In this document: positions 7,359 through 49,771 of the stretch, in pieces
Layout: every line of letters starts with the position of its first letter
Numbering within the stretch: the stretch's first letter is position 1
Source of the DNA: Polaribacter sp. Q13
Lineage (GTDB): Bacteria > Bacteroidota > Bacteroidia > Flavobacteriales > Flavobacteriaceae
Length of the DNA stretch: 64,000 bases
Assembly: GCF_016858305.2 (NCBI RefSeq)
Contig: NZ_CP074436.1
Coordinates: 330,001-394,000 of the forward strand
Reading direction: 5' to 3'
Made by a program: the position numbers and the translations under genes
The notes under the pieces: model-generated
Database searches by the model: none
Told to the model about the DNA's origin: nothing
The model's input: the letters and a program-made list of their open reading frames with translations, nothing else

Positions 7359-9869
7359 CTACTCCCAAATATTTTTTAAGTCTTCTTGTAAAAACTCTTT
7401 CAGTTTGTACCTAAATTTAACAGCGTTTATTACTTCATATTTTTGGCAGAAATTATCAAAAATAAAAATTATCTTGTTCTTACTTCCTTCTTTAGATAAG
7501 CTATGCAGTTGATAATACAAAGCTTGTATATTTAGTTCATCAATGGATTTAACATAAGTTGTAACTTGCAATACTGTTTGGAAATTTTCTTTGTAATATT
7601 CTTCTTTGCAGTAACATAATAGGGGATCGAGAATATCAAAATTTAAATTAGAACGCTCTTCTAAAAGCCATTCTTTTTTTGCTTCTGGTAAAAATTTTCC
7701 TCTTTTAACAACTTCAAAAAATTGTTGGTAATTGTGCAACCTAGAATTTATGAAACCGAGAACCCAATTGTAGTCTAAATAAATATTTTCATTCAATTCA
7801 ACTTTCCAAAATTTATTTTGATAAACTACATTAATACCCTCGGTAGATTGAAGTATTTTTTTTAATGCATTAAAAGAAACACCTCTATTGTTTGCTGCCT
7901 TGGCAGGAGGAAATCCTTCCCATAAAATATCTGTTAATTCGCTTGTGGTAATCCCTTTTTTATTTTTTATAGTTCTAAGTAAAACAAGTAAAAATAATTC
8001 TTTTAATTTAGGAGAAAAATCGGCTGCAATATCAACGCCATTGGCATTAATTAAACTGAACTTTCCAAATAAATAAATTGCATTTTTCTTTGGAATATTT
8101 TCTACAGAAACTAAAGGTTCTACCTTTTTTTTCTTAGCACGTCTTACATAAATACTTAGAAAAATTAAAGCTATTATTAAGCACGAGCTAATGATTAAAA
8201 GTAGGGGAGTCGTTTTATACGTATTAGGCTTTTTCTTTAAGTCTAAAGTATTGTGTGCTAACCATTTTATTTCATCATCATTTAGGGCTCTGTTCCATAT
8301 TTGTAAGTTATCTATATAACCGTTAAAATAATTATTATTATTTTTAATACCGTATCCCAATAAAAGATTTGAGGTACCAATAAAAGATGGACGATTTGTC
8401 GCTTTGCCAACAATAGCGCCATCAATATAAATACTTTGATTTTGTGTATCTAAATTATACTTTACAACTAAACGGTGCCATTTTTCTGGGCTAACAAAGT
8501 AGTTTGGTTTACAGTCGTTGGTGTAAAAGCCAAATACTGGTTTTTTAGAAAGAATATTTACATGTAAACCTTTTCTAAAACCTTGTTCATCACTACCTAG
8601 TATGCAGTATGTTTTTTGATCTTCTGTAGTTATATATTTAAAGTCGACGGCAATTGTAAAACTAGAGTTTATCAATTTATAATGTGCAACTTCTTGTAGC
8701 TTGATGTAGTTTTTGTTTTCAATTTTTAAAACGGTTCCCTTAACTTTATCATTAATAAATACGGGAGTATTTTCAGCTAATTGCTCTTGTTTAATTTCAT
8801 TGTCTATGGTATTTTCAAATTTGTATACTGCTGTTAAATTTTTAGTGATATCTAATTTTGTAGCATCAAATTTAAAGTTTTTATTAGGTATGATTTCATC
8901 AGAAATTTTAACGGAATTAGGTGTGAATTCATATCCTTCTTTTAAAGGTTTTAGTACAAATTCTGTCCCCTTTTCATATGGGAAGTTATAATAACCATCG
9001 GTATAAGATTTTATTTTATGTTGCCAGTTTATACCTTTTAAAATGTTGGTTTGGCTTAAAACTGTTCCTTTAATAGAGGGTGTTTCATTTATTAAATTGG
9101 TTAAATAAAAGAGTGTGTTTTTATGTTTTATTGATGAGTAAAAAATAAAATTAGGACGTTTTCCTGTAATTTTCCAAGCACGAAGTAAATATTGAATGCT
9201 ATAAGGGTTTGTACTAATACTATTCCATTGTTTTGGAATATTGTTCTTTGCTATTTTTTTTTCTGTAAAATGTTTAATGGATAAAAATTCGTTTCCTATA
9301 ACGCTATCTAAATCTGTCTTATCTCCATTATTAAATAGGGCATATTTAGTAATGTGATTAGATGTGTTGTTTATATAATTACTTTTAGAATCTTTATTGA
9401 AGATAATCAGTTGTTTTTTCTGCTTAATGATATCTTCTATAGTTGGCCAGCGTTCTCCAACCGGATTATAAAAAGATTTATCAAGTAAATTTGTAGCACT
9501 AAGTAGCTTTATTAATTTGTCATCATTGCCAGAGTACTTAATAAATAATGGAAATACTTTTTTTTCTGTTTTATTTATTTGAATAGAGAGTAACTCAAAA
9601 AATCTTTTTAAAGGTAAACTACCTTTATCCAGTTTTAATTTTAAGTCAGCTGTATTAGGTTCTTCGATAACATGAATAGACATACCATAATATCCTTTTG
9701 ATAAATCATCTTGCAGAATAGATATTATACTCTCTTTGTCTGAAAATTCAGCGATAGCAAAACTACGTTCGTTCATATTTTGACTGAAGCTGTTTTGTAC
9801 AAGAAACAATAAAAAGAAAAGGATTGTTTTTATTTTAGTTGGTAAATATTTTTTTTCTTTTCTAAACAT
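7359..9869 (-). CDS. Membrane-anchored one-component regulator: PLC-like + LamG sensor, TM helix, SARP/OmpR-like winged helix
   Basis: 836 aa. An N-terminal signal sequence ends near VQNSFSQN. About residues 30-330 resemble a PLC-like phosphodiesterase fold (WPTIEDIIKQKKQLIIF is reminiscent of such proteins; weak match). About 343-545 form a LamG/concanavalin-like domain (YKFENTID, WHRLVVKYN, IYIDGAIVG, IDNLQIWNRAL). A single transmembrane helix lies at about 553-576, followed by RRAKKKK (positive-inside). The cytoplasmic part has a winged helix at about 595-690 (KLKELFLLVLL, ITTSELTDILWEG, NRGVSFNALKKIL) and a helical tail, the layout of SARP-type regulators (Trans_reg_C plus BTAD). It should sense a sugar or wall-type ligand in the periplasm and bind DNA directly from the membrane. 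It is likely the local regulator and has its own promoter at 9905-9935. The target sites may be the TTAAG array at 10027-10099 (inference). Confidence 0.8.
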   Translation of the reverse strand: MFRKEKKYLPTKIKTILFFLLFLVQNSFSQNMNERSFAIAEFSDKESIISILQDDLSKGYYGMSIHVIEEPNTADLKLKLDKGSLPLKRFFELLSIQINKTEKKVFPLFIKYSGNDDKLIKLLSATNLLDKSFYNPVGERWPTIEDIIKQKKQLIIFNKDSKSNYINNTSNHITKYALFNNGDKTDLDSVIGNEFLSIKHFTEKKIAKNNIPKQWNSISTNPYSIQYLLRAWKITGKRPNFIFYSSIKHKNTLFYLTNLINETPSIKGTVLSQTNILKGINWQHKIKSYTDGYYNFPYEKGTEFVLKPLKEGYEFTPNSVKISDEIIPNKNFKFDATKLDITKNLTAVYKFENTIDNEIKQEQLAENTPVFINDKVKGTVLKIENKNYIKLQEVAHYKLINSSFTIAVDFKYITTEDQKTYCILGSDEQGFRKGLHVNILSKKPVFGFYTNDCKPNYFVSPEKWHRLVVKYNLDTQNQSIYIDGAIVGKATNRPSFIGTSNLLLGYGIKNNNNYFNGYIDNLQIWNRALNDDEIKWLAHNTLDLKKKPNTYKTTPLLLIISSCLIIALIFLSIYVRRAKKKKVEPLVSVENIPKKNAIYLFGKFSLINANGVDIAADFSPKLKELFLLVLLRTIKNKKGITTSELTDILWEGFPPAKAANNRGVSFNALKKILQSTEGINVVYQNKFWKVELNENIYLDYNWVLGFINSRLHNYQQFFEVVKRGKFLPEAKKEWLLEERSNLNFDILDPLLCYCKEEYYKENFQTVLQVTTYVKSIDELNIQALYYQLHSLSKEGSKNKIIFIFDNFCQKYEVINAVKFRYKLKEFLQEDLKNIWE

Positions 9870-10026: not shown

Positions 10027-10099
10027 TTAAGGTTTTTGTTAAGTGGTGTATTAAGTACTGGTTAAGTGTCTGTTAATAGTATTTTAAGGTGCTTTTAAT
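10027..10099. promoter_or_regulatory. Phased array of seven TTAAG/TTAAT direct repeats (putative operator)
   Basis: TTAAG or TTAAT begins at 10027, 10039, 10051, 10062, 10073, 10084 and 10095. The spacings are 12, 12, 11, 11, 11 and 11 bp, about one DNA turn each, and most copies are preceded by a GT-rich stretch. The array sits in the intergenic region between the divergent regulator gene and the propeller gene. OmpR/PhoB and SARP winged-helix proteins bind direct repeats with 11-bp spacing (established for those families), which fits the regulator encoded next door. Binding itself is inference. Confidence 0.55.
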
Positions 10100-10140
10100 T
10101 AGTGACTGTTACATTTACTTTTTTATTAAAGAATTTTAAT

Positions 10141-10363: not shown

Positions 10364-12955
10364 ATGAAAAAATTACTGAAACTAGCTATAATAAGTATGC
10401 TATCTTTTAATGTTTTGATACTATTTGCGCAAACTCCACAATATTTTAAAGACCTACAAACCAAAAAACAAATATCAACAACGGCTGTAAATTGGACAAA
10501 TGTTGGTCCTGGTATGTCTGGGTATAATGAAATATATTATGCACACCCAACTGATCCAAATAGTATGTACATGTCTTTGGATATGGGGAATGCATATTAT
10601 ACACACGACAATGGTTTAAATTGGACAACTATAAAAGATTGGGATACTGACGGAGAGAAAGGACGTACAATGGATGCCGATTTTTCAAGACAAAATCCTG
10701 ATTTTGGCTTTGCGCTTGATGACACTGGAAAACTAATGGTTACTCATAATCGTGGAACATCATATCAATGGGTGAAATCATGGCCTGGTTCTAAAAAGCA
10801 TTCATGCATTACTGTCGATCCAAATAATGATAACAATTGGTATGTAGGAGCAGGGCAAATTTGGAGAGTGAAAAAAATGCACAGAAGCAAAGCAAAACTT
10901 CATGGTACAATACCATTATCTGGCACTGAATATGGTCATATTTATATATCGAAGAATAAGGGTGCAAGTTGGACCAAAATAACGGATAAATTTAATGCAG
11001 ATTTGGATGTTGCTAAAATATTTGTAGATCCTACAAATTCTGATGTTGTATATACTTTTACAAACTATGGTTTTTATAAAAGTACCGATGGTGGGTATAC
11101 TTGGAAGCAGAAAGGAAAAGGATTACCATATAACTTACCTCGTGATGGTGGTATTTTCTTCAATAAAAAAACAAATGAGGTAAGTCTTTATTTAGTAGAG
11201 CAAACCAATTTTACCGATAATGGAAAAGGAGGAGTTACTACTTCTGGAGGTGTATTCAAAAGTACCGATGGAGGTGAAAACTGGGTTTCTATTTTGGGAG
11301 ACTTACCTTTCAATTTAAATAAAATTAATTATTACGATAATACTTTAAGATATTACAAAACATTGGCAAATTGGTTTAGTATTTCTATAAACGAAGCCAA
11401 AAAAAGGTTTCCAAACAAGCCTGCATTCACGTATCCTGTTTTTAATAAGTTAGTAATAAGCAAAACGAATTCAAATGAAATTTATTTGAGTTCAAATGTT
11501 GGGCACGACAAATCTTTTGGCCCTGATTTGTGGGTAAGTAAAAATGGTGGTAAGCACTGGGAAGTTTGCCTGCGTACTGGAGCATATTGGGTGAATAAGA
11601 CAGATGAAGAATATTGGAAAAGTAGAAATCAGCCGTTGGGTATGAACGCTAAATTTGCGCATTTGCAGAAAGAAAAGGAAGAAGAAAAGGTTTCTTCTAA
11701 TGTGCGAATGTTGTTTTCAAAAGTAGATGGAGAAATTATTACAGGTTACGGGCAACAAACACTTCGTTCAACAGATCAAGGAGCTAGTTGGCAACAAATT
11801 GATGACGACGAAACAACTCCTGGTTCTGGTGCTTGGGTTGGTAGAGGTGGAAGTAACCTTCCTGGGCATGACATGTTGTTGGAAACGGGAACCTCACAGT
11901 ACCTTCTTGTTAGTGGAGAGCATGGTTTATGGACAACTACTACAGGCGGAGAAAAAATTAAACCAGATGCAGTAGCCGTAAAACAACTTGAAGGACAAAC
12001 ACAAGGAAATACTAAGAATAATAAACACTCAAGTTCGGTAGCCGCAGTAGCTGTACATCCAAACGATCCCAACACTCTTTATATTCTTTCATTTAGGCAA
12101 AGTAACAGAGGTGCATTTCGAAAATCAACAGATGGAGGGAAAACTTGGAAAAATATTAGTCAGCCAGTTTCAGATAGCTCGAAATTAACAAATTCAATTG
12201 AGCAAAAAGATATATTGATAGACAAAAAGAACCCAAATAACATCTTTTTTATCGTTCCACTTGAAGACCACGCTCCTTGGGCCAAAGAACTTCGAATGAT
12301 AAATGGACGAAAGACAAAAAGAGAATTTGAAGTAGGAGTATATAGATCGCAAGATGGAGGTTATAACTGGGAGGTCGTAAATAAAGGTTTACCAAAAGGT
12401 GCTAATGTTTTTAGATTAGAAATGGATCCTAAAAATTCGAAAATATTGTATGCTTCAGTGAATAGACCTATGGATAAATCAGCTAAAGGAGGCTTGTTTA
12501 AATCTGTAGATAGCGGTAACACTTGGTCTAAGGTGAAGATTCCTTCGGAAATAAAAAGTGTAAACCATTTTAGTATTAATAAAAAAACGGGAGATTGGTA
12601 TTTAAGTGCAGGTGAAGCTGTTGGAGAAATTGATGCCGGTGGAACTTGGATAAGTAAAAATAAAGGAAAGAAATGGAAGAAGATATTCTTTATGCCTAAT
12701 GTATTCGAAACATATTCATCTAACGTTGATCCCAATACTATTTTGGTGAATGTACAAATGGGGCGTAAAATTAAAAATATTAATCCGGGAGTTTATTTTT
12801 CAAAGGATGGAGGTGCATCTTGGACAAAAGCAAATTACAAACTTGGGCAACCTGCTCGTATTATGACGTTACGTCCAGATATTAAAGATGCCAATGTCTT
12901 TTGGTTAGCAACATATGGTAGCGGATTTTACAGAGGGATATATAAACCTCAATAA
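10364..12955 (+). CDS. Asp-box (BNR/GH74- or sortilin-like) tandem beta-propeller protein
   Basis: 863 aa with a signal peptide (MKKLLKLAIISMLSFNVLILFAQ). About eleven Asp-box motifs can be read, among them SKNKGASW, STDGGYTW, STDGGENW, SKNGGKHW, STDQGASW, STDGGKTW, SQDGGYNW, SVDSGNTW and SKDGGASW. The number and length suit two consecutive propellers, as in GH74 enzymes, or a sortilin-type propeller. The C-terminal half is clearly homologous to the partial gene at the left edge of the window, so the locus holds two such proteins. A likely job is binding or endo-cleavage of the polysaccharide in the periplasm or at the surface. No catalytic Asp pair could be assigned and the family is uncertain. 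It is the first gene of the long plus-strand series, downstream of the TTAAG array. Confidence 0.8.
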   Translation: MKKLLKLAIISMLSFNVLILFAQTPQYFKDLQTKKQISTTAVNWTNVGPGMSGYNEIYYAHPTDPNSMYMSLDMGNAYYTHDNGLNWTTIKDWDTDGEKGRTMDADFSRQNPDFGFALDDTGKLMVTHNRGTSYQWVKSWPGSKKHSCITVDPNNDNNWYVGAGQIWRVKKMHRSKAKLHGTIPLSGTEYGHIYISKNKGASWTKITDKFNADLDVAKIFVDPTNSDVVYTFTNYGFYKSTDGGYTWKQKGKGLPYNLPRDGGIFFNKKTNEVSLYLVEQTNFTDNGKGGVTTSGGVFKSTDGGENWVSILGDLPFNLNKINYYDNTLRYYKTLANWFSISINEAKKRFPNKPAFTYPVFNKLVISKTNSNEIYLSSNVGHDKSFGPDLWVSKNGGKHWEVCLRTGAYWVNKTDEEYWKSRNQPLGMNAKFAHLQKEKEEEKVSSNVRMLFSKVDGEIITGYGQQTLRSTDQGASWQQIDDDETTPGSGAWVGRGGSNLPGHDMLLETGTSQYLLVSGEHGLWTTTTGGEKIKPDAVAVKQLEGQTQGNTKNNKHSSSVAAVAVHPNDPNTLYILSFRQSNRGAFRKSTDGGKTWKNISQPVSDSSKLTNSIEQKDILIDKKNPNNIFFIVPLEDHAPWAKELRMINGRKTKREFEVGVYRSQDGGYNWEVVNKGLPKGANVFRLEMDPKNSKILYASVNRPMDKSAKGGLFKSVDSGNTWSKVKIPSEIKSVNHFSINKKTGDWYLSAGEAVGEIDAGGTWISKNKGKKWKKIFFMPNVFETYSSNVDPNTILVNVQMGRKIKNINPGVYFSKDGGASWTKANYKLGQPARIMTLRPDIKDANVFWLATYGSGFYRGIYKPQ

Positions 12956-13126: not shown

Positions 13127-14485
13127 ATGTCGAAAGTATTAATTGTTAAAAAAGTTGTTTTTTTTAGTGTCTTTTTGATGATGTTCTTTGCTCTAAATGC
13201 AAACGCACAAGATAAAAAGCAAGTACAATTTAAATCAAAAACTAGTAAAAAGTATGTTGCTCCCGCTCATGTAAAATTTGATGCAAATTCAATTGTATTA
13301 AAAACAAGGTTAAGAGAACTAAATAGAGATATCAATAATTTCGGAATTTTATTAGATACAGAAATAACCAACAAAAAATTGTTAACAGGATATAGATACG
13401 AACAATTTTACGATTGGGATTTATATTTTGAAAACATTTATATGTCGTACTACGGAATTTCAAAATACAACTTCGACAATTTAGAGGGCTTTTTTGCAGT
13501 GCAACATCCAGATGGATTTATTAAAAGATCATTTGGTCCAAAATTATTTGGTGCAGATCATCACTTTAAACCTTTTATTGCCCAAATTATAGTATTGGGA
13601 TCTCGTCAGACTAAAAATTGGGAATGGGCTAAAAAGTATTATCAAAAAACGCAATTATATTTAAAGCATTGGTTTGAATATGATACAGATAAAAATGGAT
13701 TGGCATATTGGTCTGGGCAGCAAAAAGGAGCTTGGTCTGGCGCATCAGACCATAGTGGTATGGACAATCAAAATACAAGAACTCTTGGTTTAAGTGAAGG
13801 TGTAGATTTAAATTGTTATTTGGTGCGTGAATTGCAAGCGATGGCAGTTATAGCAAAAGAATTAGGGAAACATAAAGATGCTAAAAATTATTTAAAGCAT
13901 GCTGATAAGTTAAAGAAGTTGATTAACAAATATTTATGGGATGAAGCGTCTGGTTTTTATTACGATAGAAATGAAGAAAATGGAAAAACAACTTTTGTAA
14001 AGTCGGTTTCTGGTTTTACACCAATTTGGGCAGGAGTTGCATCAAAAAAACAAGTAAAACGAATGGTTGACGAGCATTTGAAAAACCCAAAAGAATTTTG
14101 GTTAGAATATCCTGTTCCTGGTTATGCAAAAACAGAACCAGATTATCGTCAGAATTATCAAGGACAAAAAGGTTGTAACTGGAAAGGTTCTACTTGGATT
14201 CCTACTAATTACATGATTTGCCATGGATTAATGGATTATGGGTATGATTCTTTAGCAAAAGAAATTGCGCTAAAAACCTATAATATGGTATTAGGAAATA
14301 AAAATACACGTGAATTTTTTAATTCAGAAACCGGTGAAGGACTAGGAATGAATCCATTCTTTGGATGGTCTTCTTTAGCCTATATTTTACCTTTAGAATT
14401 AGAATTAAAGTACAATCCTACAAAGTTAAATCAAGAAAAGATACAACCAATTGTTGTGGATAAAATTGGTGTCAATTTTAAATAA
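13127..14485 (+). CDS. GH37/GH63-like (alpha/alpha)6-barrel glycosidase
   Basis: 452 aa, signal peptide ending near LNANAQ. The sequence fits the (alpha/alpha)6 toroid shared by trehalases (GH37) and GH63 alpha-glucosidase/mannosylglycerate hydrolase-like enzymes. YEQFYDWDLYFENIYMS resembles the substrate-entry region. SGMDNQNTR holds the probable general acid Asp213 (compare SGxDxS in GH63), and GCNWKGSTWIPTNYM resembles the conserved WRGPxW segment. It is short compared with eukaryotic GH63 enzymes but normal for bacterial ones. An inverting exo-alpha-glycosidase acting on oligosaccharides is likely; the exact sugar is unknown. It begins the tight gene series 13127-45589 and has the dyad repeat in front of it. 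Confidence 0.72.
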   Translation: MSKVLIVKKVVFFSVFLMMFFALNANAQDKKQVQFKSKTSKKYVAPAHVKFDANSIVLKTRLRELNRDINNFGILLDTEITNKKLLTGYRYEQFYDWDLYFENIYMSYYGISKYNFDNLEGFFAVQHPDGFIKRSFGPKLFGADHHFKPFIAQIIVLGSRQTKNWEWAKKYYQKTQLYLKHWFEYDTDKNGLAYWSGQQKGAWSGASDHSGMDNQNTRTLGLSEGVDLNCYLVRELQAMAVIAKELGKHKDAKNYLKHADKLKKLINKYLWDEASGFYYDRNEENGKTTFVKSVSGFTPIWAGVASKKQVKRMVDEHLKNPKEFWLEYPVPGYAKTEPDYRQNYQGQKGCNWKGSTWIPTNYMICHGLMDYGYDSLAKEIALKTYNMVLGNKNTREFFNSETGEGLGMNPFFGWSSLAYILPLELELKYNPTKLNQEKIQPIVVDKIGVNFK

Positions 14486-14522
14486 TTAGGATTTGTTAAG
14501 GAATGAATCAATAAAAAATATC

Positions 14523-16088
14523 ATGAGAAATAAGTATAAAACTTTAAAAGCTGCAAGTGGGTTTGGTTTGGCACTTCTAATAGTGACTTTATCACTAATT
14601 TCTTGTGAAAAAAAGGTAGAGAAAAAACCAAACATTCTTTTTTGTATTGCAGATGATGCTTCTTTTATTCACACATCTATACAAGGAACAAGTCAACTTA
14701 ATACACCAAATTTTGATAGGGTTGCAAAACAAGGAGTGCTTTTTAATAACGCTTATAGTAATGTGTCATCTTGCGCTCCATCAAGGGCTGCTATTTTAAC
14801 AGGAAGAAACCTCTGGGAATTGGAAGAAGGAGGATTGTTATTTGGAGGGTTGCGTAAAAAGTTTCCTACGGTTTCAAATATGTTAAAAGAAACCGGTTAC
14901 GCTACAGGATATACTGGTAAAGGATATATGCCTGCAAGTTTAAAAGAACCGTATCAAACAGAACCATTGGCGCCGGAGTTAAACAAAATCAGAATGAAAG
15001 TTCCTAAATTTATTTCAAATAAGGATTATGCTAGCAATTTTGAAGACTTTCTTGATAAAAAAGAAAAAGACAAACCTTTCTTCTTTTGGTTTGGATCTCA
15101 CGAAGCACATAGGGCTTATAGTCAGGGAATTGGAGTAAAAAATGGAAAGGATATTTCGAAAATTAAAGTACCCGGTTTTTTACCAGATACAGATTTAGTC
15201 CGAAGCGATATTGCAGATTATTATTATGAAATAGAATGGTTTGATACGCATTTAGGACTTATGATTAAAGCATTGGAAGCTTCTGGTGAATTAGAAAACA
15301 CCATTATTATTGTTACTGCAGACAATGGAATGCCTTTTCCAAGAGCAAAAGCGTCATGCTACGATTATGGAACTCATATGCCATTAGCTATTTATTGGGG
15401 TAATAAAATTAAAGGAGGAGCTAACGTTGATGATTTTATCAGTTTTACCGATTTTGCTCCTACATTATTAGAAGCTGTTGGTCTTGATATTCCGAAAGAA
15501 ATGTCAGGAAAAAGTTTTTTAAATGTTTTACTTGCCAATAAAAGCGGCCAGGTAGATGCTACAAGAAATCGCGTTTTTACAGGCTTAGAACGTCATGCGT
15601 ATTGCCGTCCCGAAGGATTGGGTTATCCTGTACGTACCATTAGAAAAGAAGATTGGTTATATATGGTAAACTTTGAACCAGACAGATACCCTGGTGGAAA
15701 TCCCGATTTTTATTCAGTACATCAAGGTTATTATGGAGAGGTTGATGCTGGACCTACACGTTCTTATTTAATTGATAATAAAGAGGATATCGACGTAAAA
15801 TATTATTTCGATTTACAGTTTGCTAAACGTCAAAAAGTAGAATTATATAATGTAAAAGAAGATCCATATCAATTAAAAAACTTGGCTTCCGAAGAAAAAT
15901 ATACAGATTTATGTGATTCTTTAAAAACAGAACTTTTTGCTTATTTAAAAGAAACGAATGACCCCAGAATGGAAGGGAAAGCTCCTTGGGATAATTATCC
16001 GTATTACTTTAAAGGATTGGATAAGAAATATTTATTACCAATAGGGCTGAGAGATATTAACTATAAAACCAAAAAAATCAACAAATGA
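14523..16088 (+). CDS. Family S1 sulfatase lipoprotein (S1_8-like, CAPSR)
   Basis: Formylglycine sulfatase resembling the heparan N-sulfatase/S1_8 branch (recognised by general pattern, not searched). The start at ATG 14523 is preferred to the in-frame TTG at 14493 because it gives a lipoprotein leader with lipobox SLISC (Cys28). Metal-site NILFCIADD, modification motif C84-A-P-S-R and VTADNGMPF are all intact. GKGYMP replaces the common GKWH, as is usual in this branch and also seen in the relative at 34308. The stop codon overlaps the GH2 start by 4 bp (ATGA), indicating translational coupling with that gene. It probably removes sulfate from a sugar unit that the GH2 enzyme then acts on. 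Confidence 0.92.
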   Translation: MRNKYKTLKAASGFGLALLIVTLSLISCEKKVEKKPNILFCIADDASFIHTSIQGTSQLNTPNFDRVAKQGVLFNNAYSNVSSCAPSRAAILTGRNLWELEEGGLLFGGLRKKFPTVSNMLKETGYATGYTGKGYMPASLKEPYQTEPLAPELNKIRMKVPKFISNKDYASNFEDFLDKKEKDKPFFFWFGSHEAHRAYSQGIGVKNGKDISKIKVPGFLPDTDLVRSDIADYYYEIEWFDTHLGLMIKALEASGELENTIIIVTADNGMPFPRAKASCYDYGTHMPLAIYWGNKIKGGANVDDFISFTDFAPTLLEAVGLDIPKEMSGKSFLNVLLANKSGQVDATRNRVFTGLERHAYCRPEGLGYPVRTIRKEDWLYMVNFEPDRYPGGNPDFYSVHQGYYGEVDAGPTRSYLIDNKEDIDVKYYFDLQFAKRQKVELYNVKEDPYQLKNLASEEKYTDLCDSLKTELFAYLKETNDPRMEGKAPWDNYPYYFKGLDKKYLLPIGLRDINYKTKKINK

Positions 16089-18619: not shown

Positions 18620-20137
18620 ATGAAACAAAAAATAGTATTAGTGCTGTTTGCCATTTTTACAGCAATTAATGTATCAAACGCACAAGAAAATTTTAAACCA
18701 GAATGGGAAAGTTTAAAGAAGCACAAACCTTCTCCGGAATGGTTTGCCGATGCAAAATTAGGTGTTTATTTTCATTGGGGAGTGTACAATGTTCCTGCTA
18801 ATGGAAATGAATGGTACGGGCGTTTTATGTATGATAAAGATCGTAGAAAAAGTTGGGGTAAAGATATTTATGATTACCACACAAAAACCTACGGAAGAGA
18901 TAAACAATACCACGATTTTATCCCAGAATGGAAAGGGGAAAAATTTAGTGCAAAAGCTTGGGTAGATATGTTTGAGCATTTGGGCGCAAAATTTATTGGA
19001 ACTATTGCAGAACATCATGATGGTTTTTCGCTTTGGGAAAGTAAAGTAAATGAGTGGAATTCTAAAAACATGGGTCCAAAGATTGATGTTGTAAAAGAAA
19101 TGGCATTGGAGGTTAAAAAACGCGATTTAAAATTCATGACCACGTTTCATCATGGTTTTCATATGATGTTTTTTCCAAAAAGTGAAAACAGTGGGCTTCG
19201 TCCATTAAGTGAGCACAATGCTGTGTACAAAAATAATGAAGTGCCTTCAGATCCAAAATACCGTAAGTTATATGGAACGATGACTTATCAAGAAGAATGT
19301 GACATTTGGTTAGGAAAATTAGATGAAGTAATAAATGATTATTGTCCCGATTATATTTGGATGGATTTTGCTCAGGGTTATATAAATGAAAAATACCGTA
19401 AACAATTTTTAGCAAATTATTTTAACAAAGCAGCTGAGTTAAATAAAGAAGTGGTTGTAAATACAAAAGGAGATTTTTTTCCAACGGATTTGGCAATTGT
19501 GAATTTAGAAAGAGCAACTATGGAAGATATTATGCCAGATGTTTGGGTAACAGATTTTCAGATAGGTAGTTCTTGGGGATACAATAAAGACAAGCGTTCT
19601 GCTATTAATCCGCAAAAAGCAATTAGAATTTTAGCTGAAGTTGTAAGTAAAAATGGTGTGATGATTTTAGCTGCAGCGCCAATGGCAGAAGGAATAATTC
19701 CTGAAGAACAAGTGGCTGCAATGAATGGAATTGGTAATTGGTTAGGAGCTTATGGCGAAGCAATTTACAAAACGCGTCCGTTTGTAGAATTTGGTCAAGG
19801 TCCAACAAAATTGGTAAAAAACCCTAATGATGATTGGAATGCTTACGGAGCAATTAAAGCAGGACTTCAAGATTTAAACGATCAAGATGTTCGATATACA
19901 AAAAACGGAAATACGGTGTATGCTATTCAATTAGGATGGCCAGGTGCGAAACAAGAAATTACTTTGGAAACTTTTGCAGGAAAAGCAAAAGATTTAAAAA
20001 TTAAATCGATAAAAGTTTTAGGAAGTAAAGAACGTATCAAATGGAATAAAACAGCAAAAGGATTGACAGTTACATCACCTAAAAAAATGCCAGAATTTGG
20101 TGAAGCTGCCATTGTATATAAAATTACTTTAAAATAA
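18620..20137 (+). CDS. GH29 alpha-L-fucosidase
   Basis: 505 aa, signal peptide ending NVSNAQ, so probably periplasmic. The GH29 hallmarks are present: LGVYFHWGVYNVP near the N-terminus, AEHHDGFSLWES (substrate-binding His pair) and YIWMDFAQG with the nucleophile Asp249. The C-terminal beta-sandwich (VRYTKNGNTVYAIQLGWPG) is intact. It should release alpha-L-fucose from oligosaccharides by a retaining mechanism. It is one of three GH29 genes in the locus and has the same architecture as the others but is clearly diverged from them, suggesting different linkages. It lies between the GH2 gene and a sulfatase with short spacers, probably in the same transcript. Confidence 0.94.
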   Translation: MKQKIVLVLFAIFTAINVSNAQENFKPEWESLKKHKPSPEWFADAKLGVYFHWGVYNVPANGNEWYGRFMYDKDRRKSWGKDIYDYHTKTYGRDKQYHDFIPEWKGEKFSAKAWVDMFEHLGAKFIGTIAEHHDGFSLWESKVNEWNSKNMGPKIDVVKEMALEVKKRDLKFMTTFHHGFHMMFFPKSENSGLRPLSEHNAVYKNNEVPSDPKYRKLYGTMTYQEECDIWLGKLDEVINDYCPDYIWMDFAQGYINEKYRKQFLANYFNKAAELNKEVVVNTKGDFFPTDLAIVNLERATMEDIMPDVWVTDFQIGSSWGYNKDKRSAINPQKAIRILAEVVSKNGVMILAAAPMAEGIIPEEQVAAMNGIGNWLGAYGEAIYKTRPFVEFGQGPTKLVKNPNDDWNAYGAIKAGLQDLNDQDVRYTKNGNTVYAIQLGWPGAKQEITLETFAGKAKDLKIKSIKVLGSKERIKWNKTAKGLTVTSPKKMPEFGEAAIVYKITLK

Positions 20138-25310: not shown

Positions 25311-26823
25311 ATGAATACTAAAAAATATATAATTTTCTTGTTAATTGGAGTTTTATCAATCTCTTGTAAAGTAAAAAACGAACAGATTGCAGAAGCTTCA
25401 AAAGAACAATATCAGGCCAATTGGACTTCTTTAAGAAAGCACCAAACGCCTAATTGGTTCGATGATTTAAAGTTTGGTATTTATTGTCATTGGGGACCTC
25501 AAACAGTTGAGGTTATGTATAAAAAAGATGAAATTACTCGGTTGCAAGCTATCGAGAAATGGAAAGGAGATAAGTTTAGTGCTAAAAATTGGGTAGATGT
25601 AATGCAGAGAACAGGTGCACAATTTGGTGGTCCTGTAGCTTGGCATGGTAGTGGCATTGTAAATTGGGATAGTGATATTACAAACTGGAATTCTACTAAA
25701 AAGGGACCTAAAGTTGATATTTATGGCAGTTTGTCTAAAGAACTTCATAAAAGAGGAATGCCCGTAATTGCAAGTTATCATATAGGTGATTTTTGGAGTA
25801 GAATGTGGGGGCAAATAAGTTTAGAAAATAAATCAATTATAGATCCTACACAAGACAATTCTAAATATGCAGTTTCTAATAACGGACGAATTAGCGATGA
25901 AATTTTTGATGCGTGGTACGCCAGAATTTCAGAATCTGTAGATAAATATCAACCAGATATGATTTGGTTTGATACCGGTTTTGGAGGTACAGTTCATAAA
26001 GTATTAAAAAAGGAAATGGTAAATGGCCGTTTACTTCCAAATGTTTCTAATAAATTGATAAGTGCGCCAGAAACATATCAACAAAAAATGATTAGTTATT
26101 TCTTTAACAAGGGGTTAGAGTGGAATAAAGAAGTTGAGGTTATTTATAAAACGCATGATATTCCTGTTGGCATTGGTGTAAGAGATATTGAAGATGGAAA
26201 TTTATTGGGTTTACAATATGATCCTTGGATGGCAGATGTAAACATGCAACGTCATTTTGATTGGCGCGCTACTTGGTTTTACAATCCTTTAAACAAAGTA
26301 AAAGATGCCGGCATGTTGGTTAGATATGTTAGTGGATATGACTAGTAAAAATGGTAGAATGTTATTAAATGTTCCTCCAAAAGCAGACGGTACTTTTGCA
26401 GAAGAAGTTAAAAAAGAACTCTTTGAAATTGGAGATTGGTTAAAAATGAATGGAGAAGCAATTTATGGTACCATGCCTTGGGTATTTTATGGTGAAGGCC
26501 CAACAGAAGTTACAAATCCGGGTCATCATGGTCAAGGAAAAAATCATGGAGATTTTATTCCAAAATACACTTCGGAAGACATTCGTTTTACACAAAAAGA
26601 GAATGTATTGTATGCTATTTGCTTAGACTGGCCAGGAGAAGAATTAAATATTAGAAGTCTAGGAACTTATGGAAAACTATATCCTGGTGATATAAAATCG
26701 GTTTCGATGTTAGGTAGTAATGAACAGATTAAATGGAGCCAAAACAAAGAAGGAATGCTTTTAAAATTACCTTCAACACAGCCATGTAAATTTGCAGTGG
26801 TTTTTAAAATTGAAAGAAAATAA
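25311..26823 (+). pseudogene. GH29 alpha-L-fucosidase lipoprotein with a frameshift
   Basis: Lipoprotein leader (lipobox SISC, Cys19) and a GH29 domain with FGIYCHWGPQTVE, AWHGSGIVNWDSD and the nucleophile Asp221 in MIWFDTGFGG. The first frame stops at 26345 after DAGMLVRYVSGYD. The next frame continues as DMLVDMTSKNGRMLLNVPPKADG to 26823, so one extra base (or two missing) near 26318-26330 breaks the gene. Removing one base restores the usual MLLDMLVDMTSKNG of GH29. Joined, the protein is about 503 aa, a normal length. The substrate-contact HH pair of other GH29s reads WHGS here, so it belongs to a different subgroup. The C-terminal beta-sandwich is intact in the second frame. The next sulfatase starts 1 bp after the stop. 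Confidence 0.85.
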
Positions 26824-26824
26824 T

Positions 26825-28240
26825 ATGCAGAAATTTAAAATACTAATCGCTTTTTGTTTATTGATAAACATGATGCATGCTCAGACCCAGAAAAAAAACT
26901 TCATCATTATTTTTACGGATGATCAAGGTTATGAAGATTTAAGTTGTTTTGGCTCTAAAAATGTCCATACACCTAATATAGATCAAATGGCAGCAGAGGG
27001 AATGAAGCTAACAAGTTTTTATGTAGCTTCATCAGTATGTTCTCCTTCAAGAGCGGCTTTATTAACCGGTAGAATGCCAAAACGCGCGGGAGTTCCCAAA
27101 GTTTTATTTTCTACTCCAGCCATTTTTAACGGACACGGATTGCCGCCAGAAGAAATTACAATTGCAGAACATTTAAAAGAAAAAAATTATGAAACCGCAT
27201 TGGTTGGTAAATGGCATTTAGGTCATGAAAAAGAGTATTTACCTTTAAATCAAGGTTTTGATTCTTATTACGGAATTCCATATAGTAATGATATGTCTAT
27301 TGCGCCTAATATGGAAATTTCTCCGGATGTAGTTTTAAATGATGGCTATACCATTGAACAGTTACATTCTGATGCAAAAAGAGTGGATAAACATTATAGT
27401 GAATTAAGAAACAAACCGCCTTTAATGAGAGGGAATAAGGTGATCGAATATCCTGCAGATCAATCAACTTTAACAAAAAGATATACCAAAGAAGCCATAT
27501 CATTTATCAAAAAAAACAAAGAAAAACCGTTCTTTTTGTATTTCGCACATACGTTTCCACACAGACCAATTTATGTGAGCGATCAATTTAAAAATTCAAG
27601 TAACGGTGGTCCTTATTACGATGCTATTAAAGAAATTGATTGGAGTGTTGGTGAAGTTTTAAAAGTATTAAAGGAAAATAAATTAGATAAAAATACAGTG
27701 GTTATTTTCTGTTCAGATAATGGGCCTAATAGTTTAGGTTCTGCCAAACCTTTAAAAGGGAAAAAGTTTTCTACTTATGAAGGCGGACAAAGAGTACCAG
27801 GAATTATTTGGGCGCCAGGGGAAATTAAAGCAGGATCTGAAAGTGACGAATTAATTTCTTCTTTAGATATTTTTCCTACCATAGCTAAATATGCTGGAAT
27901 TGAAATGCCCGATAATAGAATTTATGACGGATATGATCAAACGGCATTTTTAAGTGGGAATTCAAAAAAATCGGCAAGAAATGAAATGTATTATTATTCT
28001 GCAAATACAACAGTTATTGATGGAGTTCGTGCTGGTGATTGGAAATTTCTATATAAAGGACACAAAGTAAAAAATGCAGGGAAATTAAAAGGCGATGATT
28101 TGGTTGATAAACTATACAATGTAAAAAAAGACATTTCAGAAAAAAACAATTTGATTAAAACAAATCCTAAAAAAGCAGAAGAGCTTATTAAACTAATGAA
28201 AGCATTTGATGTAAAATTAGAAGAAGATATTCAACAATAA
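26825..28240 (+). CDS. Family S1 sulfatase (CSPSR), tandem copy 1
   Basis: The start at ATG 26825 is chosen because it gives the signal peptide MQKFKILIAFCLLINMMHAQ; a longer frame from 26792 would overlap the fucosidase. The arylsulfatase core is IIIFTDDQGYEDLSCFGS, then C72-S-P-S-R, GKWHLGHEKEYLPLNQGFDSYYGIPYSND and FCSDNGPNS. Length is 472 aa. It is closely similar along its whole length to the next gene, and the two are tandem duplicates. The layout resembles the S1_16/S1_19-type exo-sulfatases, but the subfamily is a guess. It opens the block of eleven sulfatases. Confidence 0.94.
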   Translation: MQKFKILIAFCLLINMMHAQTQKKNFIIIFTDDQGYEDLSCFGSKNVHTPNIDQMAAEGMKLTSFYVASSVCSPSRAALLTGRMPKRAGVPKVLFSTPAIFNGHGLPPEEITIAEHLKEKNYETALVGKWHLGHEKEYLPLNQGFDSYYGIPYSNDMSIAPNMEISPDVVLNDGYTIEQLHSDAKRVDKHYSELRNKPPLMRGNKVIEYPADQSTLTKRYTKEAISFIKKNKEKPFFLYFAHTFPHRPIYVSDQFKNSSNGGPYYDAIKEIDWSVGEVLKVLKENKLDKNTVVIFCSDNGPNSLGSAKPLKGKKFSTYEGGQRVPGIIWAPGEIKAGSESDELISSLDIFPTIAKYAGIEMPDNRIYDGYDQTAFLSGNSKKSARNEMYYYSANTTVIDGVRAGDWKFLYKGHKVKNAGKLKGDDLVDKLYNVKKDISEKNNLIKTNPKKAEELIKLMKAFDVKLEEDIQQ

Positions 28241-28253
28241 AAAAAAAGAAAAT

Positions 28254-29669
28254 ATGAAATATTTTGTAATACTATTTTTAGCATTGTTCCAAACAGCAAT
28301 ACTACAATCTCAAGTAAAAAACGTGATTGTTATTTTTACTGATGATCAAGGTTATGAAGATTTAAGTTGTTACGGATCAAATAAAGTAAAAACGCCTAAC
28401 ATAGATCAAATGGCAGAAGAAGGTTTAAAACTAACCAGTTTTTATGTAGCTTCTTCCGTGTGTTCTCCTTCAAGAGCAGCTTTGTTAACAGGTAGAATGC
28501 CTAAACGTGTTGGTATTCCTGGAGTTTTGTTTCCAAAGAAAAATGAAAAAGGATTACCTACAGATGAAATAACTATTGCAGAACTTCTAAAAGAGAAAAA
28601 TTACGCAACTGGTTTGGTAGGAAAATGGCATTTAGGACATGCTAAAAAATACCTTCCGTTAAACCAAGGTTTCGATTCTTATTACGGAATTCCATATAGC
28701 AATAATATGTCTATTGCCTCAGGAATTGACATTTCGCCAAACGTTGTTTTAAATGACGGTTATACATTAGAAATGATGCATGCCGATATTAAAAAAGTAG
28801 ATAGCGGAGAGAAAAAATACAAAAATGAATTAAAAGAAAAAGCGCCTTTGTTAAGAGGTAATGAGATTGTAGAGTATCCTACAAATCAAACGACTTTAAC
28901 TGAGAGATATACAAAAGAAGCTGTTTCATTTATCAAAAAAAATAAAGAGAAACCTTTCTTTTTGTATTTCGCACATTCTTTTCCTCATGTGCCAATTTTT
29001 GTTGGCGATAAATTTAAAGGAATCAGCGGAAGTACTCCATATTATGATGCTATTGCAGAAATAGATTGGAGTGTTGGTGAAGTTTTTAAAACTTTAAAAG
29101 AAAATGGGTTAGATAAAAATACACTTGTTATTTTTACTTCAGATAATGGGCCAAATAGTCATGGTTCTGCAAAACCATTAAAAGGAAGAAAGTTTGAAAC
29201 CTATGATGGAGGACAAAGAGTACCAGCAATATTTTGGGCTCCAGAAGAGATTAAAGCGGGCATTACAAGTGATGAAGTAGTTTCTTCGTTAGATGTTCTT
29301 CCAACTATTGCAAATTTCACCGGTATTTGCATGCCAAAAGATAGGGTTTATGATGGTTATGATCTTTCAAAATTTCTAAAAGGGAAAACGAAAGAATCAC
29401 CAAGAAAAGAAATGTATTTCTATGGTTCTAATTCTACAAAAATAGATGGAATTCGTCAGGGAGATTGGAAATATTTAATTAAAGGGTACAGAAAAGCAGG
29501 TTGGTATAAACCTAAAGGAGATGATCTTAAAATTAAGTTGTTTAATCTGAAAGAAGATATATCAGAATCTGAAAATTTAATTGAAAAAAATCCTGAAAAA
29601 GCAAATGAGCTTTTAAATAAAATGAAGGATTATGACGCTGATTTAACAAAAGATATTTCAAAAAAATAA
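28254..29669 (+). CDS. Family S1 sulfatase (CSPSR), tandem copy 2
   Basis: 471 aa, signal peptide MKYFVILFLALFQTAILQSQ. Motifs follow its neighbour: VIFTDDQGYEDLSCYGS, C70-S-P-S-R-AALLTGRMPKR, GKWHLGHAKKYLPLNQGFD and FTSDNGPNSHG. It arose from, or gave rise to, the gene 14 bp upstream by tandem duplication. Differences cluster in loops such as the segment after LTGRMPKR (VGIPGVLFPKKNEK versus AGVPKVLFSTPAIF), which may tune substrate choice. Both copies have all catalytic residues, so neither appears to be decaying. Periplasmic location is expected from the SPI leader. Confidence 0.94.
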   Translation: MKYFVILFLALFQTAILQSQVKNVIVIFTDDQGYEDLSCYGSNKVKTPNIDQMAEEGLKLTSFYVASSVCSPSRAALLTGRMPKRVGIPGVLFPKKNEKGLPTDEITIAELLKEKNYATGLVGKWHLGHAKKYLPLNQGFDSYYGIPYSNNMSIASGIDISPNVVLNDGYTLEMMHADIKKVDSGEKKYKNELKEKAPLLRGNEIVEYPTNQTTLTERYTKEAVSFIKKNKEKPFFLYFAHSFPHVPIFVGDKFKGISGSTPYYDAIAEIDWSVGEVFKTLKENGLDKNTLVIFTSDNGPNSHGSAKPLKGRKFETYDGGQRVPAIFWAPEEIKAGITSDEVVSSLDVLPTIANFTGICMPKDRVYDGYDLSKFLKGKTKESPRKEMYFYGSNSTKIDGIRQGDWKYLIKGYRKAGWYKPKGDDLKIKLFNLKEDISESENLIEKNPEKANELLNKMKDYDADLTKDISKK

Positions 29670-29693
29670 AAACCATTTTTAATTTTAAGACAG

Positions 29694-31106
29694 ATGAAAT
29701 GTAAAACCAATATTTTAAATTCCTTATTGATATTTTTAGTTTTTGTCCAACTTTCTGCACAAGAAAAACCAAATGTCATCCTTATTATGGCAGATGATGT
29801 AAGTTGGAATTGCTTTAGTACTTACGGAGCAGAAGATTATAAAACCCCAAATATTGATGCTTTGGCGGCAAAAGGACTTCAATTTAATCATTGTTATTCT
29901 ATGCCAATTTGTACACCGTCTCGTGTAAAAATTATGACGGGTCAATACAATTTTAGAAATTATACTCATTTTGGATATTTGAATCCAAAAGATAAAACTT
30001 TTGGAAATTTAATGAGAGATAACGGCTATAAAACAGCCATTGCTGGTAAGTGGCAACTAAACGGATTGTACAATAAATTACCGGGAAGTTTAGATAAAAC
30101 AAGACCATTTAAGGCAGGGTTTGATGAGTCTTGTTTATGGCAAGTAACTACAGAAAAAAAAGGAAAAAATGGAGGAGAACGCTTTTGGAGTCCGCCTTTA
30201 CTTCAAAACGGGAAATTTCTTAGTATAGAAGATAATCAAGGAAAATACGGTCCAGATATTATGTCTGATTTTGTTTGTGATTTTATAGAAAAGAATAAGG
30301 ATGCACCTTTCTTTGTGTATTATCCAACGGTGTTGGTGCACAGTCCTTTTGTTCCTACACCAGATACTATTGGTGATGGAGATAGGTCTCAAAATGCAAA
30401 TCATACGCCGAAAGACAAAAAATTAAAAAAAGCCAATTATGTGGCAATGGTGAGTTATTTGGATAAAATAGTGGGTAAAATAGTTGATAAAGTTGAAGCT
30501 GTTGGTCAGTTAGACAACACAATTATATTATTTACTTCGGACAACGGTACAGCTTCTATTACTTCAAAATGGAAAGGAGAAAATGTTGTTGGAGGAAAAG
30601 GAAAAACCATAGATATGGGTACACATGTGCCGTTGGTTGCGTATTGGAAAGGACATACGCCAAAGGGTGTTCAAAGTAACGATTTAGTAGATTTTACAGA
30701 TTTCTATGCAACAATTGCAAGTGCTGCAAAAATTAAACTTGGTAAAGACGATCCTATTGATGGACGTAGCTTTTTACCACAATTAGAAAATAAAAAAGGT
30801 AATCCAAGAGATTGGGTGTTTTGGCAATATCAACCCTATTGGGGGAAATTTGAAGGAATTCAGTTTGTTAGAAATCAAACTTATAAATTATATAAAACAG
30901 GAGAGTTATATGATATTCCGAATGACTTGCATGAAAAAAACAATTTAAAGTTAGATACAAACAATATTGAGGCTCAGAAAGCTAAAAATAATCTTCAAAA
31001 AGTGTTAGATGTAGCACCACCAGCACCATTAGTTGTTGGAGGTAGATATGCTAAAAAGCGAGAAGTGTATCCAGATTGGAAGAATATTGTAAATCCTAAT
31101 GATTAA
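29694..31106 (+). CDS. Family S1 sulfatase (CTPSR) with GKWQ instead of GKWH
   Basis: 470 aa, signal peptide ending VQLSAQ. Metal site NVILIMADDVSWN, modification motif C73-T-P-S-R, FTSDNGTAS and YPTVLVHSPF (second active-site His) are present. The active-site Lys/His segment reads AGKWQLNG: Gln replaces the His that contacts the sulfate in characterised sulfatases. The segment after it is also unusual (LPGSLDKTRPFKAGFDES). This may mark a subfamily with a different sulfate-binding site. The gene stops 10 bp before the next sulfatase start (31117), so the two are likely co-translated on one transcript. Confidence 0.92.
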   Translation: MKCKTNILNSLLIFLVFVQLSAQEKPNVILIMADDVSWNCFSTYGAEDYKTPNIDALAAKGLQFNHCYSMPICTPSRVKIMTGQYNFRNYTHFGYLNPKDKTFGNLMRDNGYKTAIAGKWQLNGLYNKLPGSLDKTRPFKAGFDESCLWQVTTEKKGKNGGERFWSPPLLQNGKFLSIEDNQGKYGPDIMSDFVCDFIEKNKDAPFFVYYPTVLVHSPFVPTPDTIGDGDRSQNANHTPKDKKLKKANYVAMVSYLDKIVGKIVDKVEAVGQLDNTIILFTSDNGTASITSKWKGENVVGGKGKTIDMGTHVPLVAYWKGHTPKGVQSNDLVDFTDFYATIASAAKIKLGKDDPIDGRSFLPQLENKKGNPRDWVFWQYQPYWGKFEGIQFVRNQTYKLYKTGELYDIPNDLHEKNNLKLDTNNIEAQKAKNNLQKVLDVAPPAPLVVGGRYAKKREVYPDWKNIVNPND

Positions 31107-31116
31107 AAATAAAATA

Positions 31117-32622
31117 ATGAGAACAAAACAATTCCTTAAAATTTTAGTGCTATTTTGTTTATTCGCAAATACTATTTCAGCACAAAACAAACCCAATATT
31201 GTAGTTATTATGGCTGATGATATTGGTGTGGGAGATATTGGTTTTTATCACAAACAACGTACAGGGAAAGAACCAGTAGTGCCAACCCCAAATATTGATA
31301 AATTAATAGACCAAGGAATGCGATTTTCTGATGCGCATTCACCGGCTTCGCTTTGTGCTCCTACACGTTTTTCTATGATGACGGGTAATTTTTCATATCG
31401 AAATAAAAAAGGACCTTGGGGCGTTTGGGGACCAGATAGAGATGCAGGAATAGAACCAAACTTTACAACAGTAGCGCGTGTCGCAAAAAAAGGAGGATAT
31501 AATACCGCTTTTTTCGGGAAATGGGGACTTGGTGGCGATTGGGATGCGAAGCCAAAGAGTATTTCTGGTTACGAAAACGTACAAAAAGGAGCTGGTTATT
31601 ATGGTTTTGATTATTCTGTTGCTTTGCCAGAAGGCATTCAAAATGTTCCGTATGCTTTTTATGAAGATGGAAAATTTATGAAACTTAAAGACGATTCTAA
31701 AATTACAAAAATTCCTTTTGAGCAACTAAAATATTCTGACGAGAATAAAAGAAAAGTAGGAGGTAGTGTTGGTGATTCTAATTGGGATCCTACATTAGCT
31801 GGACCTGTTTTGGCTAATAAAGCGGTTACTTATATCAACCAACAATCAAATACTAAAAAACCGTTCTTTCTTTATTATTGTAGTCAGGCAGTACATTTGC
31901 CACACGCTCCTTCATCAACATTAAATGGAGAAAAAATTGCAGGTGCTACACTAGAAACGCATGGCGACATGATTAAAGAATTGGATGTTCAAGTAGGTAT
32001 GATGATTGCTGCTTTGAAGAAAAATAATTTATATGATAATACGCTTATAGTATTTACTTCGGATAATGGTGGACTTCCAAATTATAAATATAGTCCGAAA
32101 TTAGAAAAACTAGGTCATGATTCTAGTGATGGTAAGAATGGATATAAAGGTTCCATTTATGAAGGTGGACATAGAATTCCGTTTGTTGCCGTTTGGTCTG
32201 GACATATAAAACCAAAAAGTAAATCGGATATTGTTATGGTTGGTCATGATATGATGCCAACAATAGCAGCAGTTACAAATGTTAGTTTAGAAAAAGAAGT
32301 AGTGCTAGACGCTGCAAATTTATTACCAATTCTAACAGGTAAATCCGAAGCTCCTATTCATAAATATTTAATGCATCAAGCTCAAAAAGGGAAAGGTGGT
32401 TATTACGCTATTCGCGAAGGAGATTTTAAATTAGTGATGTCTGTAACTAAAAGAGATGTTTTTGATGATTTAAAGGTTGATGGGTTGTATAATCTTAAGG
32501 ATAATGTTTTAGAAGATCCATCAGGAAATCTTAAGGGAAAAGAAGTGTACAAAGAAAAAATAAGTCAATTGAAAAATAAGTTTTTAGAATTGAGAAAACC
32601 AGGTGCAACTACTCTTTATTAA
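31117..32622 (+). CDS. Family S1 sulfatase (CAPTR, GKWG type), paralogue of 42447-43940
   Basis: The start at ATG 31117 gives signal peptide MRTKQFLKILVLFCLFANTISAQ; a start at 31099 would overlap the previous gene by 8 bp. Core motifs are IVVIMADDIGVGDIGFYH, C80-A-P-T-R, FTSDNGGLPN and SQAVHLPHAP. Thr replaces Ser at the fourth place of the modification motif. The Lys/His segment is GKWGLGGDW, without the His. Large stretches are identical to the gene at 42447, so these two are recent paralogues in the same locus. The cluster member at 37506 is a more distant relative that keeps GKWH. An untranslated gap of 120 bp follows, with nothing recognisable. Confidence 0.93.
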   Translation: MRTKQFLKILVLFCLFANTISAQNKPNIVVIMADDIGVGDIGFYHKQRTGKEPVVPTPNIDKLIDQGMRFSDAHSPASLCAPTRFSMMTGNFSYRNKKGPWGVWGPDRDAGIEPNFTTVARVAKKGGYNTAFFGKWGLGGDWDAKPKSISGYENVQKGAGYYGFDYSVALPEGIQNVPYAFYEDGKFMKLKDDSKITKIPFEQLKYSDENKRKVGGSVGDSNWDPTLAGPVLANKAVTYINQQSNTKKPFFLYYCSQAVHLPHAPSSTLNGEKIAGATLETHGDMIKELDVQVGMMIAALKKNNLYDNTLIVFTSDNGGLPNYKYSPKLEKLGHDSSDGKNGYKGSIYEGGHRIPFVAVWSGHIKPKSKSDIVMVGHDMMPTIAAVTNVSLEKEVVLDAANLLPILTGKSEAPIHKYLMHQAQKGKGGYYAIREGDFKLVMSVTKRDVFDDLKVDGLYNLKDNVLEDPSGNLKGKEVYKEKISQLKNKFLELRKPGATTLY

Positions 32623-32742
32623 GATAGGTAAACTAATATTCAATACTAATTATTTAGATGGTGCTATTAGATGCAGGTATTTATATGCAACCATTTTTCC
32701 TAAAGCAAAATAATAAATAATAAACGTAAAAATTAAAAGTAT

Positions 32743-34302: not shown

Positions 34303-34307
34303 AAATC

Positions 34308-35825: not shown

Positions 35826-35876
35826 AAAAAACGAAAGATATTATAACGAGCAATCCGTTTTGAAAAATTATAGCAT

Positions 35877-37475: not shown

Positions 37476-37505
37476 AATTAAATATTGAAAAAAACTATAA
37501 TAGAA

Positions 37506-39056: not shown

Positions 39057-39065
39057 GTTACAATT

Positions 39066-40628: not shown

Positions 40629-40634
40629 GAAATA

Positions 40635-42440: not shown

Positions 42441-42446
42441 AAAGAA

Positions 42447-43940: not shown

Positions 43941-43957
43941 AATTAAAAAAATATCAA

Positions 43958-49763: not shown

Positions 49764-49771
49764 TGAAATAA

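Follow-up and report, generated by a model that had tools for sequence, protein, structure and literature searches.

The minus-strand gene at positions 7,359-9,869 of the window (the whole 64,000-nucleotide stretch of Polaribacter sp. Q13 DNA analysed) probably encodes a one-component transmembrane activator, which would sense an extracellular fucose-containing sulfated glycan and drive the divergent fucosidase/sulfatase operon through a direct-repeat array. The sequence analysis supports the architecture of the protein, the loss of the motif histidines in its phospholipase C (PLC)-like domain, the repeat array, the synteny and the co-variation of repeat and output domain; we infer the ligand, activation by clustering, DNA binding, topology and positive regulation.

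Gene and domain layout of the regulator

The plus-strand frame across the gene is full of stops and the real open reading frame (ORF) is the minus-strand one. Thirty full-length relatives, among which there are near-copies, align to the 836-residue product at 23-98% identity; in this 31-row alignment the relatives P0008-P0010 show a shortened PLC part. At the sequence level the ORF is confirmed as more than a chance frame and its layout as real. The domains are listed in Table 1, and the cytoplasmic winged helix and TPR-like domain together span residues 592-836. LamG_3 (PF13385) matches residues 386-535 with an E value of 7e-17 and 62.4 bits against a cut-off of 27.6. The transmembrane (TM) helix was placed at 551-578 by hydropathy and at 554-578 in the AlphaFold2 model, and the charge bias around it is moderate: three K before and five K/R after. 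The model gives low confidence to the linker 579-589 and, in ten-residue blocks from 591 on, pLDDT values of 81-94, with 72 in the last block. A first AlphaFold model, from 10 rows, had low confidence in the PLC region, which improved with 31 rows. The beta domain at 266-343 is carboxypeptidase-regulatory-like by appearance and has no library match. Single-sequence Pfam and NCBIfam scans of the protein did not detect the PLC domain and the winged helix, Pfam gave no histidine kinase or receiver match up to E 1, and the result lists of structure-based fold searches were filled by LamG matches, with no read-out on PLC or SARP folds.

An earlier note, made from the sequence alone, had proposed a sensor part, one TM helix and a winged helix with helical repeats, and had regarded the LamG, TM and winged-helix calls as the firmer ones. 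Pfam, hydropathy and AlphaFold2 bear out this architecture and all three calls, and structure prediction, named there as a possible refutation, contains both the winged helix and the TM helix. The beta domain and the promoter repeat array are additions to that description.

Table 1. Features of the regulator gene, the divergent promoter region and the presumed target operon (positions in the window)
Feature	Position	Strand	Basis
Membrane-anchored SARP-type regulator gene, 836 aa	7359..9869	-	ATG at 9869; alignment of 31 rows including the query
Signal peptide, residues 1-29	9783..9869	-	By eye: hydrophobic stretch, FSQ end; model helix 9-22
PI-PLC-like domain without motif histidines, residues 31-265	9075..9779	-	hhalign 98.3% to PF00388 protein; His columns 1/31, 0/31
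Extra beta domain, residues 266-343	8841..9074	-	Strands in model; own profile separable in relatives
LamG/ConA-like lectin domain, residues 344-545	8235..8840	-	PF13385
Single TM helix, residues 551-578, RR at its end, then AKKKK	8136..8219	-	Hydropathy, model
Winged-helix DNA-binding domain (OmpR/SARP type), residues 597-697	7779..8081	-	Model; weak PDB profile matches
BTAD-like helical repeat domain, residues 698-836	7362..7778	-	TPR matches, best E 1.5e-5
Seven-copy TTAA(G) direct-repeat array, proposed operator	10027..10101	+	Shuffle tests; related arrays in L003-L005
TACATTTA, -7-like promoter box	10110..10117	+	8 bp past last repeat; TA..TT.A columns
BNR/sortilin-like protein, first gene of presumed target operon	10364..12955	+	PF15902, PF02012
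MGH1-like glycoside hydrolase	13127..14485	+	PF22422; 76-82% identity to L003-L005 counterparts
Sulfatase	14493..16088	+	PF00884; 72-73% to L003/L004 genes
Alpha-L-fucosidase (GH29-type)	18620..20137	+	PF01120; 77-85% in L003-L005
Co-directional sulfatase/fucosidase array, presumed further targets	26792..51346	+	Common direction of the genes

PLC-like sensor domain

The PLC-like assignment had been called weak. Its homology part is now firmer, a profile search having been run: the PLC part of the regulator family profile aligns over 212 columns with a PF00388 protein (hhalign probability 98.3%), and at the level of sequence profiles the homology of residues 31-265 to the PI-PLC X-domain phospholipases is firm. 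The reference protein (PF00388 E 1e-7, with a sorting tail) comes from genome G024, which belongs to the same family as the window, and its gene adjoins a Kelch-type regulator gene. Of its motif residues, the W of WPT is conserved in 28 of the 31 rows of the PLC domain alignment and the N of PNFI in 30. The regulator differs from the phospholipases in the two motif histidine columns, which hold His in 1/31 and 0/31 rows, the alignment near the first of them being gapped, and no column of the domain has His in half of the 31 rows. We take these two histidines to be the catalytic pair; since they are missing, the domain appears to be a pseudoenzyme. In locus L045, the gene at 8527-10098 adjoins that of a Kelch-type SARP regulator and encodes a secreted PI-PLC which has a Por sorting tail and in which both motif histidines are present; this pairing is a possible hint at the origin of the PLC sensor.

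Putative DNA-binding head

The winged-helix region, 597-697, shows weak PDB profile matches (SaeR, E 0.07-0.08; AfsR 8hvr, E 0.24), and none of the Pfam winged-helix models matched the regulator (P0001). BTAD matches two LamG-LamG relatives with E values of 0.012 and 0.0051, both under the Pfam cut-off, and a BTAD search of the Polaribacter genome itself gave nothing above the cut-off. Judged by sequence, the SARP label is weak. In the AlphaFold2 model only, a winged helix is followed by BTAD-like helices, with the secondary structure and in the order seen in SARPs. The SARP-type reading of the earlier note gains from the order in the model and from operator-type repeats, and its sequence support (AfsR, BTAD) stays weak.

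Repeat array in the divergent promoter

The divergent region measures 494 bp and shows TTAA at 10,027, 10,039, 10,051, 10,062, 10,073, 10,084 and 10,095, in steps of 12, 12, 11, 11, 11 and 11 bp. A seven-long TTAA chain at 11/12 bp appeared in 0 of 2000 shuffles, and in 0 of 3000 in a second shuffle test. The gap between the last heptamer and TACATTTA is 8 bp in the window; with the 11/12-bp steps, this is a DNA pattern of the SARP operator type. In published SARP operators, according to passages of PMC10936776, the repeats follow one another at intervals of 11 or 22 bp and the 3' repeat lies 8 bp from the -10 element, and PimR uses heptamers with 4-bp spacers, as described in part of PMC5930380. 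We propose the array as the operator for the head of the neighbouring regulator.

The TTAAG triple gives two overlapping matches in the window, both in the array, and none in 100 shuffles. The whole 4.42-Mb genome contains three matches, two of them in the array, and the reversed control is equally frequent with three, so the evidence lies in the long chain and not in the triple. The third match, at C1:1131883, shows no clear link. The pattern TTAAGKGN5TTAAGK is non-specific: it gives 26 matches against 32 for its control in 8 genomes, and consequently no wider regulon was defined.

Three relatives (L003-L005, from Labilibacter, Saccharicrinis and Wenyingzhuangia) also carry arrays ahead of this fucosidase/sulfatase operon; they are related to the array of the window but less regular, and their orientation to the operon, as judged by TTAAG, is the one seen in the window. 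Strict 11/12-bp TTAA chains in L003, L004 and L005 are 2, 3 and 3 long, lengths attained in 479, 38 and 56 of 2000 shuffles. With looser steps (11-13 and 22-24 bp), a rule set after these arrays had been viewed, the TTAA chains are 5, 4 and 5 long (1, 55 and 21 of 3000 shuffles) and the TTAAG chains 3, 2 and 5 long (1, 36 and 0 of 3000). When MAFFT aligns the four arrays, the TA..TT.A columns that come after them are invariant in the four promoters; the L003 box does not match TA..TTT[AG]. Upstream of other full PLC-type regulators there are TTAA chains in L008 (4), L007 (3) and L046 (3), reached by 3, 13 and 35 of 1000 shuffles, and TAAG chains in L047 (3, in 0 of 1000) and L006 (2, in 31 of 1000), these five values being the best among several core words tried.

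Target locus and synteny

The operon that faces away from the regulator gene in Labilibacter, Saccharicrinis and Wenyingzhuangia, in divergent orientation to it, starts with an MGH1-like hydrolase gene and also contains a fucosidase (77-85% identity) and several sulfatases (72-88%, others near 30%). The regulators of these three genera are only 43-51% identical to the 836-residue protein. The window contains at least 15 sulfatase genes, 14 of them on the plus strand, and three fucosidase genes, one in two pieces, which suggests a fucose-containing sulfated glycan as the substrate. The survey of co-occurrence with sulfatase loci proposed in the earlier note gave a divided result. Linkage of PLC-type regulators to sulfatase arrays is found in four TTAAG loci: the window, L003, L004 and L005. 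No such array lies beside the other full PLC-type loci whose neighbours were examined, L006-L008, where a single sulfatase piece occurs in L006 at a distance of about 9.5 kb, or in the Gfo/Idh clade described below; the neighbour-gene survey covered L010 and L047 in part and left out L011-L013 and L046.

Three further observations concern this region. The GH29-type fucosidase gene at 25,311-26,823 is split in two overlapping ORFs, 25,311-26,345 and 26,305-26,823, each matching part of PF01120, and is likely a frameshift or a pseudogene. At 24,020-25,243 there are two short ORFs, of 144 and 245 aa, without Pfam matches; the first has a GGSITNG stretch, which to us has a GDSL-like look, and the pair may be a second broken gene. 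The piece at 10,140-10,240, between the repeat array and the BNR gene, is G+C-rich with, by eye, an inverted-repeat look; as the L003-L005 operons begin directly at the MGH1-like gene, the stretch may, together with the BNR gene, have been inserted.

Distribution of the family in Bacteroidota

With the output-domain profile, 42 distinct ORF sequences were identified across the loci examined, those of L041 and L045 being one gene. Several sensors are exchangeable on this one output domain: PLC-beta-LamG, LamG-LamG, Kelch, and LamG with a degenerate N-terminal part. In the phylum sample, at least 13 of 392 genomes, from six families, show an output-domain match below E 1e-40, a lower bound given that scoring was limited to six candidates per genome. 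An earlier scan with the family profile, as a rule scoring two candidates per genome, found 27 of 397 genomes with a best E below 1e-50; a count of 215 of 397 was rejected, most of the weak matches listed covering LamG columns alone. A genome contig search with P0001 alone as query found no relatives. Named members are annotated, in the records examined, as LamG proteins or 'SAPR/SARP' regulators.

The genome of Polaribacter sp. Q13 contains one more member, a LamG-LamG protein of 692 aa whose gene lies before two sulfatase genes, with TTTTACCC repeats in between. This paralogue (G000:C1:475635-477713, L106) is inside a second sulfatase locus, and in Wenyingzhuangia (L005) both regulator types are found within 22 kb. 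Six loci (L048-L052 and L054) show the regulator ahead of Gfo/Idh and 3-keto-disaccharide hydrolase-type genes, some then followed by a GMC oxidoreductase gene (neighbour genes called with Pfam in L050 and L054 alone), so family members also occur outside sulfatase loci. L074-L090, a SARP-like group of Bacteroidota at a greater distance, has best E values of about 7e-19 to 9e-10; 14 of its 17 loci show no TM helix in the sequence covered, and the group has no clear 11/12-bp repeat signal. Locus L068 (G683:C1:1169741-1171572) shows tandem SARP-type regulators, and the DNA that separates them contains a 20-bp match at offset 12.

Direct repeats across the family

Exact direct repeats of at least 8 bp at an offset of 8-20 are present in 22 of 59 regulator-flanking regions, 15 of the 22 at offset 11/12, against 15 of 88 control regions of the same loci, 3 of the 15 at that offset (Fisher p 0.005, in an exploratory comparison where related genes are not independent). 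Among the 13 downstream regions of the loci fetched later, 10 have their best offset at 11 or 12, with one 11/12 tie (binomial 1.4e-6); 9 of 12 is the safer count because L071 and L072 are near-copies, and L064 comes from a genome with another family member already known beforehand. L066, L067 and one L068 region of this set lack the signal. Of 50 downstream regions, 30 contain a repeat unit of at least 7 bp between the regulator and the gene that follows, and in 20 there is none.

The tandem TTACCCC pattern, TTACCCCN{4,6}TTACCCC, gives 14 matches in 15 genomes. Twelve of these follow the matched end of a regulator at a distance of 36-397 bp. The reversed control gives nine matches in the same genomes; as the motif was first read at loci of the genomes searched, the search tests rarity and not adjacency. 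The tandem is absent from G120 and G250, and the matches at G000:754295 and G094:C22, inside ORFs, were taken as chance. Counted from the A of the last ACC, 8 of 23 promoters have a TA..TTTR box 24-26 nt further on, with about 0.2 expected; the 7 of 30 repeat-bearing regions without ACC are left out of this count, the 24-26 range was picked after the counts, and several of the eight promoters belong to related genes. On the output-domain tree, the users of TTAAG, TTACCCC, TTCACC and TTAACCC cluster with 3 changes, the least possible, and label shuffles average 13.0 and are as low as 3 in 0 of 200, with labels set by hand for 29 of 54 rows. This supports, as far as sequences go, a repeat motif that tracks the phylogeny of the output domain.

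Proposed mechanism and alternative explanations

In the proposed mechanism, the secreted half (PI-PLC-like, beta and LamG domains) would sense, on the outer side of the inner membrane, a ligand that is most likely an oligosaccharide of a fucose-containing sulfated algal glycan, and the one TM helix, in the predicted topology, would pass the signal inward. Ligand binding may alter the association of the single-pass protomers and so lead to clustering. The winged-helix and BTAD-like heads would then bind in head-to-tail order along one DNA face, each 11-12-bp repeat taking one monomer, and those beside the -7 box could contact RNA polymerase and recruit it to the divergent operon, presumably with a positive effect. 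An array of seven repeats would permit a graded, cooperative switch.

A membrane protease might instead cut near the TM helix and free the SARP-type head as a soluble factor. The single TM helix and the low-confidence linker that joins it to the head in the model would suit such regulated proteolysis, which we consider unlikely. The repeats could also serve another regulator, for instance a response regulator of the PhoB/OmpR type, the membrane protein being a mere neighbour, since 11-bp repeats are suitable for PhoB-type regulators too; however, the repeat motif, with hand-set labels, follows the phylogeny of this output domain, and 12 of the 14 TTACCCC tandems in 15 genomes adjoin these regulator genes, which makes this explanation improbable.

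Lying in a divergent region, the array could act on both genes, so the protein might repress the operon or chiefly control its own gene. Against this, the last repeat is just upstream of the -7-like box facing the operon, as in activating SARPs, and in 30 of 50 downstream regions, some maybe by chance, the repeat is between the regulator and the next gene; we give repression or autoregulation little credence. Despite the clear PI-PLC homology, a role as a membrane phospholipase, with the cytoplasmic part as an accessory, is very improbable for the protein, considering that the motif columns are nearly devoid of His and that LamG or Kelch replaces PLC in other family members. The preferred reading is still that of a glycan-sensing transmembrane activator.

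Relation to known systems and significance

The SARPs of Streptomyces are actinobacterial, typically soluble proteins. The regulator resembles AfsR and PimR in its modelled winged helix and the BTAD-like helices after it, and in 11-bp direct repeats at a promoter element (passages of PMC10936776 and PMC5930380); it differs in its C-terminal, membrane-tethered head, its occurrence in Bacteroidota and its array of up to seven 11-12-bp repeats. Transmembrane transcription regulators (TTRs) are, in the main text of PMC10269533, widespread and more frequent in Bacteroidota; its supplementary domain tables comprise over a hundred DNA-binding domains, and the words 'SARP' and 'BTAD' are absent from the main text taken alone, apart from those tables. 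By prediction, the regulator carries a TM helix and a DNA-binding domain in one chain, as the TTR definition asks. Regulators of the ToxR/CadC type have an N-terminal cytoplasmic winged helix and a C-terminal periplasmic domain. The regulator would share with them the one-component design, the TM helix, the head inside and the sensor outside, but its order is reversed: the sensor is N-terminal with a signal peptide and the BTAD-like head is C-terminal. In Bacteroides, glycans are read by hybrid two-component systems and by SusR, proteins whose target is a polysaccharide locus; the regulator differs from the hybrid systems in having no matched histidine kinase or receiver domain.

Among the matches listed in the open-licence literature, no description of membrane SARP-type regulators in Bacteroidota was found. 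TTRs as a widespread group and SARPs are known, and what would be new is the joining of both in Bacteroidota. Tentatively, and with more doubt than confidence, these proteins may form an undescribed receptor class of this phylum: membrane-tethered SARPs of inverted topology with exchangeable secreted sensors, whose heads would line up along 11-12-bp repeats in strings of up to seven protomers. In the branch with the regulator of the window, a dead phospholipase C domain, descended from one that gripped a phosphorylated polyol ring, would have turned into a receptor of sulfated sugars.

If true, marine Bacteroidota would have a further glycan-sensing route beside hybrid two-component, SusR-like, ECF/anti-sigma and AraC regulators. 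The arrays are testable candidate operators, and an 11-12-bp repeat beside the gene would be a rule for assigning target operons to the family. The system would also provide a simple modular sensor-to-SARP design, and a lead on the inducers of fucose- and sulfate-rich polysaccharide clusters.
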